Position numbers and translations under genes: made by a program
Origin: Nitrospira sp.
GTDB lineage: Bacteria; Nitrospirota; Nitrospiria; Nitrospirales; Nitrospiraceae
Direction of reading: 5' to 3'
NCBI GenBank assembly: GCA_020846195.1
Contig: JADLEJ010000022.1
Location: forward strand, 1-64,000
Length of the DNA stretch: 64,000 nt
Notes under the pieces: generated by a model
Seen by the model: the letters and a program-made list of their open reading frames with translations, nothing else
Told to the model about the DNA's origin: nothing
The model's database searches: none
Part shown: piece by piece, positions 35,217 to 41,116 of the stretch
How the letters are laid out: each line of letters opens with the position of its first letter
Numbering within the stretch: position 1 is the stretch's first letter

Positions 35217-35888
35217 TCAAGGCCGTGGGTCTAGCTCAATTAATCCTTTTCTGATCGCAAGGATGGCAGCCTGGGTTCGATCATAGACCTGTAGTTTATG
35301 GAAAATGTTACGCACATGGTTTTTTACGGTCTTTTCACTCAAGTCCAATGCGTTGGCGATCTCTTTATTGGTTTTCCCATCGGCGACCAATCGGAGCACG
35401 GTGATTTCTCGTTCGGTGAGGTCATGCTCCACCCACCCTGGCTTTTTACCCTTCTTTTGAGCCATGAGCGAAAATTCCGCGAGGATCTTGCTAGCGACGG
35501 ATGGATGAATCAATGATTCGCCTCGGTATATGGCTCGAATCGCTGCGACAATTTGTGAAGACTCGGAGTCTTTCAGCAGGTATCCGGTCGCGCCGGCTCG
35601 AACGAGATCGAAAATGTACTGCTGCTCCTCATACATCGTCAGCGCGACAATCCCGATGTGCGGGAATTCGCGTTTGATTTGCCTGGTGGCTTCGACGCCG
35701 CCCATGCGAGGCATGCTCACGTCCATGAGAATGACATCGGGGACGAGCGCATTGGCTTTTTCGACAGCTTCCATTCCGTCTTGCGCTTCACCGACGATAT
35801 GCAGATCCTCCTTGGTTTTGAGAATGGCCGCGAGCCCTTCTCGAACGACGCGGTGGTCGTCGGCAATGAGGACCTTAATCTTGTCCAT
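35217..35888 (-). CDS. NarL/FixJ-family response regulator
   Basis: IKVLIADDHRVVREGLAAIL receiver; LTEREITVLRLVADGKTNKEIANALDLSEKTVKNHVRNIFHKL HTH. Confidence 0.95.
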   Translation of the reverse strand: MDKIKVLIADDHRVVREGLAAILKTKEDLHIVGEAQDGMEAVEKANALVPDVILMDVSMPRMGGVEATRQIKREFPHIGIVALTMYEEQQYIFDLVRAGATGYLLKDSESSQIVAAIRAIYRGESLIHPSVASKILAEFSLMAQKKGKKPGWVEHDLTEREITVLRLVADGKTNKEIANALDLSEKTVKNHVRNIFHKLQVYDRTQAAILAIRKGLIELDPRP

Positions 35889-36984
35889 GTTCGCTCGTCT
35901 CCTTGTTTATGAGGGGGACTTCGACGGTGATCGTCGTGCCCCGCCCCTGCTTGGAATCGATATGCCCCTCGCCGCCGACAAGTTTCGCCCGTTCAATAAT
36001 GCCGCGAATACCGAAATGATCCCACTTGTCGGGGTCGCGCAGAACGGCATCCATGTCGAAGCCGATGCCGTTATCTGAAATGGTCACGCGCAGCATTTCG
36101 AGATTGATCTCCAGCTGGATCGACACACGGCCGGCCTTGGCATGTTTCTGGACGTTGCTCAAGGCTTCCTGAATAATCCGAAACAAGAAAATTTTGGTGC
36201 GGGGAAAGAGAATCTGTTCGTCCCCGGTCACGGTGAAACGCGCTTTAATGCGCGCCTGAGTCTCGTAGGACTTGAGATAGTTGGTCAGCGCGGGAATCAG
36301 CTCCATTTTGTCGTAATGGAGCGGGCGCAAGTTGAAGATGACCTGACGAGCTTCTTGAATGGCCAGTTTCAGCTGCGCCTTGCTTTCTTTGAGCGTGACG
36401 AGGCTTGCCTTGGGATCCTTGCGTACGAGTTGCTGGCATAAGTCGAGCTTAAAATTGACGCCAGCGAGACTCTGGACCAAGCCATCATGGATTTCGCAAG
36501 CGATGCGCGTTCGCTCTTCGGTGACCGCCGCGCCGGTTTCCTTGACATAGAGCCGGTAGAGCGACTGATATTTATTGAGCGTGCTTTCGATTTCCGCGGT
36601 TGCGCGGATGCGCGCGCCGATGAGCTCCCACATGAACTTCGCGCTGGCCCCGCCGATGATCGTGACGCCCATTCGGTGAAAGTCTTGCAGGAACTGCCAG
36701 ACCTCGGCATCACCGGATACGTCGATCACGAGGTCGACCCGTTCCATCGCTAGAAGTTTGCGATAGTCCCGCGTGACAGGGATCTGAAGCTGCTTCGCGA
36801 GTGTGACGCCGGGAGCTTGCGCGTTGACTTCGGCGATTCCTACGATTTGGACCAGCGGGTCATTCGCAAAGATTTCTATGAGCGCGGTTCCCCCGCGCCC
36901 GGCGCCGATGATTGCGACATTGGTCGCGCCGACCTTTGACGACTTGCGGTGGATTTTTGTGGAGCCGGCTTTCGCGGTGGCCAT
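35875..36984 (-). CDS. NarX/DesK-type sensor kinase with N-terminal Rossmann-like domain
   Basis: NVAIIGAGRGGTALIEIFANDPLVQIVGIAEVN...VDLVIDVSG; HisKA_3 (ERTRIACEIHDGLVQSLAGV) and HATPase (DNGIGFD, GIRGIIERAKLVGG). Confidence 0.88.
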   Translation of the reverse strand: MATAKAGSTKIHRKSSKVGATNVAIIGAGRGGTALIEIFANDPLVQIVGIAEVNAQAPGVTLAKQLQIPVTRDYRKLLAMERVDLVIDVSGDAEVWQFLQDFHRMGVTIIGGASAKFMWELIGARIRATAEIESTLNKYQSLYRLYVKETGAAVTEERTRIACEIHDGLVQSLAGVNFKLDLCQQLVRKDPKASLVTLKESKAQLKLAIQEARQVIFNLRPLHYDKMELIPALTNYLKSYETQARIKARFTVTGDEQILFPRTKIFLFRIIQEALSNVQKHAKAGRVSIQLEINLEMLRVTISDNGIGFDMDAVLRDPDKWDHFGIRGIIERAKLVGGEGHIDSKQGRGTTITVEVPLINKETSEHGQD

Positions 36985-38878: not shown

Positions 38879-39346
38879 TTATACTTCGGCGGTTTCCGGT
38901 TCTTGTTTCTTCACCACGCGGACGGTCACAGTCGCAGTGACCTCTCGCGGCATCTTGATCGGCACCGTCACGGTCCCCAGTTCCTTAATGGGTTGGGCCA
39001 GCTGGATCTTGCGCCGGTCGATCGTAAATCCTTGCGCGGCCAGAGCTTCGGCCAGGTCCTTGGAGGTCACCGATCCGAACATCTTGTCGTCTTTTCCGAC
39101 TTGTGCCTCGATGGTGACGGTGACGGCCGAGACTTTCTTGGCGTGGGCTTCGATTTCGAGCTTCTCTTTTTTCGCCTTCTCCGCTGCGACGCGCTTCACA
39201 TGCTCGAAGGCCTTGATGCTGCGGCTGTCGGCCAACACGGCTTTCTTGCGAGGCAAGAGGAAGTTTCTGGCAAATCCGTCCCGCACATCGAGCAGGTCGC
39301 CGAGATGGCCGACCCCGTCCATTGTTTCTTGTAAAATGACTTTCAT
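38879..39346 (-). CDS. rplI: 50S ribosomal protein L9
   Basis: MKVILQETMDGVGHLGDLLDVRDGFARNFLLPRKKAVLA. Confidence 0.96.
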   Translation of the reverse strand: MKVILQETMDGVGHLGDLLDVRDGFARNFLLPRKKAVLADSRSIKAFEHVKRVAAEKAKKEKLEIEAHAKKVSAVTVTIEAQVGKDDKMFGSVTSKDLAEALAAQGFTIDRRKIQLAQPIKELGTVTVPIKMPREVTATVTVRVVKKQEPETAEV

Positions 39347-39502
39347 CCCCCTGGCTCCTTCTGTTGGAAAGGAAGTGAGGATACGGGGGATCGGGTTGAA
39401 AAGTCAATGATCTAATCCTTTTCCAGGCTCCGTTCATCGCCTGGACAGGTGCCGATGGGCACCTATATCATGGCCGCGTTGTCACGATTGCAGAGGAGCT
39501 GA

Positions 39503-40951
39503 ATGGAACTGACCGCCAGGACTTGTTTAGAGACGTGCGCCACGAGATTGGATCGGGAAGTTCAACGGACGAACGAGGCCGGACTCGATGCGCCCGTGAT
39601 GGTTACGAGAGGAACCCTGCGGCATTCAGTGGGGGGGCTTCACGTGTATGAGTTTGCACTCCCGGCCGGATGCTTGTTGCCGATCGACCTTCCTGTGTCC
39701 ATTGTTCCTGGGGATGAGCAGGACGCAACGGAGGGAGTCGTCCTGAGTTGTCACGACGGCGTGGCGCTGGTGCAAACGGTGGACGCCATTGGGGCTTCAG
39801 TCCTCTCGGCCACGCTCATTCCCGACCGTGCCGGTCATCTCGGCACCATTGCGACCAGACTGCGCGACATGATCAGTCAGGCAGATGCCTACAATCTCGG
39901 TCCGTCCGAGCGGCTTGTCCCGCTCTTGCTGTCGTCCGGCGATCCAGGTCAAGCCGCTCCTGGCGCTTCGGCGATCTTGACCACGATGTGGCTCGAAGAT
40001 CAATCGCTGCGCCGCCAGAAGGTTGCGAGCCTTGTCCTTGAATTGATTCGGGCGAACAAGCGGATTTTACTGATCGGCCCAGATCATCGCTCCTCCGATG
40101 AAATGGCCGGGACGATTGCGAAAGCCATGAAAGCCAGCGGGTTGATGTACAAGACCTGGATCAGCCGCTACGAAATGAGCATTCTCTCCCAAGCCAGCGG
40201 GATCGCCATCCATGAGCTTGGGTTCGAGGCGCAGATGCATCAGTTTTATGCCAAGTCCAGGGCGGATAAAGCGTCGCTTCGGAGAAAGTACGACCGGTTT
40301 CGCGAGCTGACCCCGCTGCTGGCCTATAAAGGGCAGAAGCAAAAGGATTTGGATGAAGTCCGGTTGCTGGAGTGGAGACTGTTGACGCAGTTGAGCGAGC
40401 TGCAGGCGAAGATCAAGGATGTCACGACGATTCTGACGGAGTATGAAAATCTCCCGCTCTGGCGGCGGCTTGGCATGCAGACGGTCGGGAAGAATATCGA
40501 ATCGCTTCAGCAATATCGGGTGCTCTACGAACAGCAGATTCGCGAACTGACCAAGGAATTGGAGATCGCCAAAGTCCGCATCGATGAGTTGGTGCCCGAG
40601 GCGGCCGTTCCAAAAGATTTGCGGCCGGAATTCGACGACCTCAAAGAAGACATCACGAAACTGGGCGGCACGAAGAAAATTCGCGAACTGCTGGCGGCGG
40701 AAGAAAATACCAATCGCCAGGCGTTCATCCAAAACCGCCGCCTGGTGATCTCCACGCCGGCGCGGATTGCCAGCGACCCGCTGTTTGCCCGCGTGCGCTT
40801 CGACGTGCTGATTGTTGATGACGCGCCGCAGATCGATTCGACCATGTTGCTGGCAGCGGCGGGACTGGTGCGCGAGCGCATTGTGCTCAGCGGGGATCTC
40901 CGCGAACTGGCCGCCCGTGGCGGCTGGGCGAAGCCGGGAACGGAATCTTAG
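39503..40951 (+). CDS. Degenerate SF1 (Upf1/Dna2-like) helicase-related protein with coiled coil
   Basis: N-terminal barrel-like segment, KRILLIGPDHRSSDEMA (motif Ia-like), long coiled coil, FDVLIVDDAPQ...RIVLSGDLREL (motif II/III-like); no Walker A lysine motif and no RecA2. Confidence 0.6.
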   Translation: MELTARTCLETCATRLDREVQRTNEAGLDAPVMVTRGTLRHSVGGLHVYEFALPAGCLLPIDLPVSIVPGDEQDATEGVVLSCHDGVALVQTVDAIGASVLSATLIPDRAGHLGTIATRLRDMISQADAYNLGPSERLVPLLLSSGDPGQAAPGASAILTTMWLEDQSLRRQKVASLVLELIRANKRILLIGPDHRSSDEMAGTIAKAMKASGLMYKTWISRYEMSILSQASGIAIHELGFEAQMHQFYAKSRADKASLRRKYDRFRELTPLLAYKGQKQKDLDEVRLLEWRLLTQLSELQAKIKDVTTILTEYENLPLWRRLGMQTVGKNIESLQQYRVLYEQQIRELTKELEIAKVRIDELVPEAAVPKDLRPEFDDLKEDITKLGGTKKIRELLAAEENTNRQAFIQNRRLVISTPARIASDPLFARVRFDVLIVDDAPQIDSTMLLAAAGLVRERIVLSGDLRELAARGGWAKPGTES

Positions 40952-40981: not shown

Positions 40982-41011
40982 TTGACGCCGGTAGCGTGAA
41001 TTCAGGATAAT
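40982..41011 (+). promoter_or_regulatory. Sigma-70-type promoter for tRNA-Leu
   Basis: TTGACG-N18-GATAAT, 20 nt before the tRNA 5' end. Confidence 0.6.
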
Positions 41012-41030: not shown

Positions 41031-41116
41031 GCCGAAGTGGTGGAATGGCAGACACACTGGTTTCAGGTACCAGCGACCGCAAGGTCATGCGGGTTCAACT
41101 CCCGCCTTCGGCACCA
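41031..41116 (+). tRNA. tRNA-Leu(CAG), CCA encoded
   Basis: GCCGAAG...CTTCGGC acceptor; anticodon arm CTGGT-TTCAGGT-ACCAG; GGTTCAACTCC T-loop; CACCA end. Confidence 0.93.

Follow-up and report, generated by a model that had tools for sequence, protein, structure and literature searches.

The half-helicase gene and its surroundings

The window, i.e. the whole stretch of 64 000 nt of Nitrospira sp. DNA that was analysed, carries the gene of a protein referred to here as the half-helicase. Its features are compiled in Table 1; the reading frame, coordinates and peptides given by an initial reading of the sequence alone (hereafter the sequence-only reading) were exact. The product is the colinear N-terminal half of an Upf1-like SF1 helicase, comprising the stalk, the 1B barrel and RecA1. 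It stops right after motif III, so that RecA2 is missing; this had been proposed before and is the same in all complete copies. A coiled coil is inserted between motifs Ia and II. The sequence-only reading had correctly recognized this coil but placed it in the 1B/1C region, which it does not fill, the Upf1-type 1B domain being a barrel that precedes RecA1.

Table 1. Features of the half-helicase gene, its product and the adjoining tRNA gene.
Feature	Residues	Position	Strand	Basis or remark
Promoter-like site TGGACA-18-TATCAT before the half-helicase gene		39442..39471	+	Consensus scan
Half-helicase open reading frame	482 aa	39503..40951	+	
Stalk helix 1	5-26	39515..39580	+	AlphaFold2 model
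1B-type beta barrel	32-107	39596..39823	+	AlphaFold2 strands and alignment with intact relatives
Stalk helix 2	109-125	39827..39877	+	AlphaFold2 model
Q-motif remnant LGPSERLVPL	132-141	39896..39925	+	
Former P-loop WLEDQSLRR	163-171	39989..40015	+	
Motif Ia-like NKRILLIGPDHRSSD	185-199	40055..40099	+	
Long arm helix	241-316	40223..40450	+	AlphaFold2 model; best-conserved long segment
Arm tip	317-331	40451..40495	+	AlphaFold2 model
Returning arm helix	332-367	40496..40603	+	AlphaFold2 model
Motif II remnant FDVLIVDDAPQI	433-444	40799..40834	+	
Motif III remnant IVLSGDLREL	460-469	40880..40909	+	
Conserved promoter-like site TTGACG-18-GATAAT before the tRNA gene		40982..41011	+	Consensus scan; kept in many relatives
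tRNA-Leu(CAG)		41031..41116	+	80 nt downstream of the half-helicase gene

The rplI gene (38879-39346, − strand) is divergent to the half-helicase gene. The window also encodes a histidine kinase (35875-36984, − strand; HisKA_3 and HATPase_c) with an N-terminal NAD-binding Rossmann-type domain (GFO_IDH_MocA/DapB_N-like), which adjoins a LuxR-type response regulator (35217-35888, − strand). This pair is kept upstream of nrdR-glyA-rplI across the Nitrospirales, and the kinase possibly senses NAD(H) or a metabolite.

Descent from Upf1-like SF1 helicases

The Pfam profile AAA_11 matched residues 183-470 (E = 9.7e-9; 35.8 bits, compared with a curated cut-off of 27), the match spanning only positions 50-251 of the 257 in the profile and leaving the P-loop part unmatched. 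Thirty-six of 39 diverse orthologues matched the same profile at E ≤ 0.01. When PDB was searched with a sequence profile, Dna2 was the only family matched significantly, at motifs II and III. Structural comparison was based on an AlphaFold2 model built from 68 sequences (mean pLDDT 85.8, pTM 0.73): PDB matches 1-26 retrieved with this model by Foldseek were all SETX/Sen1, IGHMBP2, UPF1 or Dna2 (E = 4.2e-12 to 2.0e-6). Over the whole chain, the model scored only modestly against Upf1-like entries (TM-scores 0.28-0.46) and its rmsd was large, since the long arm and the absence of RecA2 interfere with a global fit. In a profile-profile comparison, residues 7-474 aligned with positions 110-608 of four intact Upf1-like helicases from other Nitrospirales, here designated L127-L130, with a probability of 99.1 and an E-value of 5.2e-19. 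The order of stalk, 1B barrel and RecA1 was found in the half-helicase by model, Foldseek and profile alignment.

By descent, the half-helicase belongs to the Upf1-like SF1 superfamily. The Upf1/Dna2-like RecA1 remnants noticed in the sequence-only reading were thereby confirmed, as was the likeness to Upf1, IGHMBP2 and Dna2 for which it had suggested an AlphaFold comparison; its own reservation, that the fold might not resemble SF1 RecA1, did not hold in the model, the Foldseek search or the profile alignment. The half-helicase has the coiled coil in common with coil-bearing intact bacterial relatives and did not newly acquire it.

Loss of the ATP site

The former P-loop aligned without gaps to that of the intact helicase L127, with V-W-[SLQ]-[DE]-[DE]-x-x-x-R-R in the half-helicases vs VWGPPGCGKS. 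In the window protein, residues 163-171 (W-LEDQSL-R-R) occupy the motif I position and Arg170 that of the Walker A Lys. The lack of GxGKT described earlier proved general: the Walker A motif GxxGxGK(S/T) was absent from 110/110 sequences and all P-loop glycines were gone, while the Lys position was Arg and Trp163 was invariant, again in all 110. The Gln position of the Q-motif was Glu or Asp in every one of the 110 copies, and Arg137 was invariant. The constancy of Trp163 and Arg170 suggests conversion of the former P-loop into a structural or binding site, not drift.

Motifs II and III, whose strands are kept, were altered to different degrees. Across the 110 sequences motif II keeps FD and A-P and varies in its acidic pair, the first position being D in 89 and E in 18, and the second E in 76, D in 23 and N in 11 (the window protein has D-D). 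Many copies still read DEAP, so that metal binding need not have been lost completely in all species. The Gln of motif III was replaced in all copies, by Asp or Glu in 107 of the 110. Without a P-loop, an adenine-reading Gln and RecA2, ATP-driven translocation would in practice be excluded, as far as can be judged from sequence.

Distribution and selection in the Nitrospirales

Among the Nitrospirales, 97 of the 99 genomes sampled had an orthologue, with all 19 sampled genera represented, against 0 of 196 sampled Nitrospirota genomes from outside this order. Conservation in other Nitrospirota, which the sequence-only reading had asked about, was thus found within the order but not beyond it. 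A closer relative was used to retest the remaining two Nitrospirales genomes (G229 and G260), which again gave no match. The gene is kept as a single copy, near-universal in the order, and is retained also in Nitrospirales genomes of 1.7-2 Mb; complete copies all have ∼440-505 residues and end just past motif III. In a genome-wide pattern scan, the best 80 of 104 loci were nearly all labelled Nitrospira, Nitrospiraceae, Nitrospirales or Nitrospirota/Nitrospirae; one carried the label Nitrosospira and is probably a mislabelled comammox Nitrospira. Judged by these best 80 of 104 loci, the half-helicase is likely to be absent outside the Nitrospirota.

Comparison with six relatives gave dN/dS values of 0.055-0.084 for the whole gene and 0-0.11 for the coil. 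Together with the near-universal presence in the order, these whole-gene values bear out the notion of a retained half-helicase. Pairwise distances tracked those of glyA (r 0.86) and rplI (r 0.87), from which we conclude that inheritance was mainly vertical. RecA2 and the ATP site had probably been lost already in the last common ancestor of the Nitrospirales.

Linkage to tRNA-Leu and variable upstream genes

The tRNA-Leu(CAG) gene was the next same-strand gene in 112 of the 115 loci with enough flanking sequence, mostly at a distance of 40-360 nt. On the upstream side, rplI was present in 48/79 testable loci, and the other 31 showed at least four contexts (24, 5, 1 and 1 loci); these are numbers of loci, some genomes being included twice, and not of independent events. 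The tRNA gene stays with the half-helicase in nearly all of these upstream contexts. Since it has a promoter-like site of its own, it need not be co-transcribed with the half-helicase. Co-transcription is thereby weakened as a reason for the linkage, and passive linkage is possible given this site and the short gap.

Many Nitrospira (L036, L038, L043, L059, L061 and others) have a similar stretch (..GAGAACGAAG..CATTTTCAGC..) between the half-helicase and tRNA-Leu genes, which lengthens the gap to about 200-330 nt; it looks like an interspersed repeat and is absent from the window. In two other Nitrospirales families (f2 and f3; e.g. L110:7429-7923, L108, L109, L092, L122), an orphan protein of ∼165 aa with a signal-peptide-like N-terminus is encoded immediately upstream of the half-helicase, at 0-26 nt in most loci, with single cases of overlap or of up to 149 nt. 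It had no Pfam match and was not detected in the genome of the window or in most sampled relatives of its family. A role as working partner is unlikely in view of its signal-peptide-like start and of its not being found in the window's genome.

A pseudohelicase scaffold as the probable function

The half-helicase shows homology to intact helicases over its whole length, purifying selection and broad retention, as seen in pseudohelicases. That it would have no catalytic activity and be retained for binding is strongly supported. We propose that it is a pseudohelicase acting as a scaffold, independently of ATP: the arm would dock a partner, and the barrel and RecA1 would hold nucleic acid or a ribonucleoprotein. 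We regard this reading as probable. The ancestor would have been a bacterial helicase of the Upf1-like (SF1B) type whose OB-like 1B barrel sat on a helical stalk and whose RecA1 carried a coiled-coil insertion; RecA2 and the ATP site would have been lost before the Nitrospirales diversified. In the present protein, nucleic acid or a ribonucleoprotein would be clamped statically by the barrel, stalk and RecA1 core, and the long arm (helix 241-316 with tip 317-331) would dock into a conserved partner. The protein would thus serve a housekeeping machine as scaffold or adaptor. RNA polymerase (cf. HelD) or the ribosome might be considered first as hypothetical partners.

In Upf1 and its relatives, barrel, stalk and RecA1 contact nucleic acid. 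Our proposal builds on this property of the intact family's core and on the partner coupling proposed for the coil insertions of CnuH (see below); nucleic-acid binding by the half-helicase itself is assumed by analogy with the parent family. The sequence-only reading had suggested a scaffold or nucleic-acid-binding protein, which we would likewise infer, and a role in binding agrees with purifying selection that is strong and focused on the arm. Tentatively, and with considerable doubt, we suggest that a core information-processing machine (RNA polymerase, ribosome or tRNA metabolism) may include the half-helicase as a component that is probably essential and occurs throughout the order.

It is also possible, though in our view doubtful, that the protein is an enzymatically inert coiled-coil adaptor between proteins, its helicase half serving as a structural pedestal with no nucleic acid bound. 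The arm and its tip are indeed among the best-conserved parts: arm helix residues 241-300 are very highly conserved, with invariant residues on all helix faces, which exceeds the needs of coil packing, and Arg322, Gln326, Gly329 and Asn331 of the tip are invariant. A short segment, residues 401-411, showed conservation similar to that of helix 241-300. The 1B barrel is among the least conserved regions and has a net charge of −7 in the window protein, so that strong nucleic-acid binding there is not favoured. However, Trp163, Arg170, Arg137, the NKR strand and Gly464 are invariant, which argues that the helicase half, too, is constrained in detail.

A remnant or component of a CnuH/CoCoNuT-type anti-phage defence system appears very unlikely. 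The closest intact coil-insertion architectures do include the defence-associated CnuH clade (PMC11090510), but the half-helicase is a vertically inherited, single-copy core gene with housekeeping neighbours. Matches to PADLOC models were all weak (best E 0.0077) and lay in the coiled-coil region, and nothing significant was found for it among PHROGs, plasmids or viral contigs. Nor are McrB/McrC-type CnuB/CnuC and CnuE encoded beside it, its neighbours being rplI, glyA, nrdR or other non-McrBC genes, and tRNA-Leu.

We consider it still more improbable that the half-helicase is one part of a split motor, completed in trans by a separate RecA2-like protein and with ATP bound at a non-canonical site. 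The preserved motif II and III strands, and DE(A) at motif II in many copies, would suit such an arrangement. Against it, the genome of the window (94.9% complete) had no match to the RecA2-type AAA_12 and no second AAA_11 domain, so that the downstream RecA2 partner envisaged by the sequence-only reading was not found, and no copy retains the P-loop glycines, the Lys or the Q-motif Gln. Finally, a decaying pseudogene, frameshift or assembly artefact, as a truncated helicase without catalytic motifs might suggest and as the sequence-only reading had allowed for, can be dismissed with near certainty given the order-wide orthologues, the frame that is open throughout, the low dN/dS, and the end point that about 110 distinct sequences, all without a P-loop, have in common.

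The pseudohelicase scaffold that we favour is, as such, of a known kind, with few examples of inactive helicases that have been retained as scaffolds. Searching open-access text, we found no description of the half-helicase protein, and within this limited literature search a lineage-wide Upf1-like helicase half ending at motif III has not been described. The Nitrospirales, the lineage of the nitrite-oxidising and comammox Nitrospira, provide a clean case in which a whole order has fixed the front half of an Upf1-like helicase with every recognisable ATP-handling feature removed. Its near-universal occurrence as a single copy, even at the genome sizes given above, suggests that it has a core function in these organisms, which are central to nitrification. 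If it does belong to a core information-processing machine, the Nitrospirales would have turned a motor into a factor that bears an arm, needs no ATP and is missing from other bacteria.

Comparison with known systems

With UPF1, IGHMBP2, SETX/Sen1 and Dna2, the half-helicase has in common the fold and the order of stalk, 1B barrel and RecA1, and the strands of motifs II and III are still recognisable. In contrast to these Upf1-like SF1B helicases, it lacks the P-loop, the Gln residues of the Q-motif and motif III, and RecA2, and a long coiled coil separates its motifs Ia and II. CnuH of CoCoNuT likewise has a barrel on a stalk and, after Walker A, a helical coiled-coil insertion; it has been proposed that CnuH is linked to its partner proteins through such insertions (PMC11090510). 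CnuH and L127-L130 carry GPPGxGK(S/T), which the half-helicase does not, and CnuH resides in defence operons whereas the half-helicase is a single-copy core gene; CnuH or another intact clade may be its nearest relative. L127-L130 are colinear with the half-helicase over residues 7-474, but RecA2, which it lacks, is complete in L127, L129 and L130; L128 breaks off at the end of its contig. The L127 protein (L127:1615-4956, − strand) is an intact Upf1-like helicase of 1113 aa with a coiled-coil insertion, RecA2 and a C-terminal PLD-like domain, and resembles in outline the CnuH/CnuE-type defence helicases.

RecC and AddB are inactive helicase subunits in which the helicase fold is reused as a static recognition scaffold; they represent another SF1 branch and are part of a nuclease complex. 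Such static reuse is also what we propose for the half-helicase, for which no nuclease-complex partner was seen. PriA belongs to SF2. In Deinococcus radiodurans PriA, the Walker A Lys is replaced by Arg and ATPase activity is lacking, while binding of DNA and DnaB is kept; the Lys-to-Arg change and an eroded Walker B occur throughout a lineage (PMC4504706). The half-helicase has the same Walker A replacement, but D. radiodurans PriA keeps both helicase domains and acts in a known pathway, whereas half of the motor is missing here. In HelD, an RNA polymerase recycling factor, long arms extend from a helicase-like core into the partner (PMC7749165, PMC7749160), and the HelD structure 6zca was a weak Foldseek match to the half-helicase model (E 0.011). 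The likeness is one of working principle only, HelD having NTPase activity, two RecA domains and arms of another kind.
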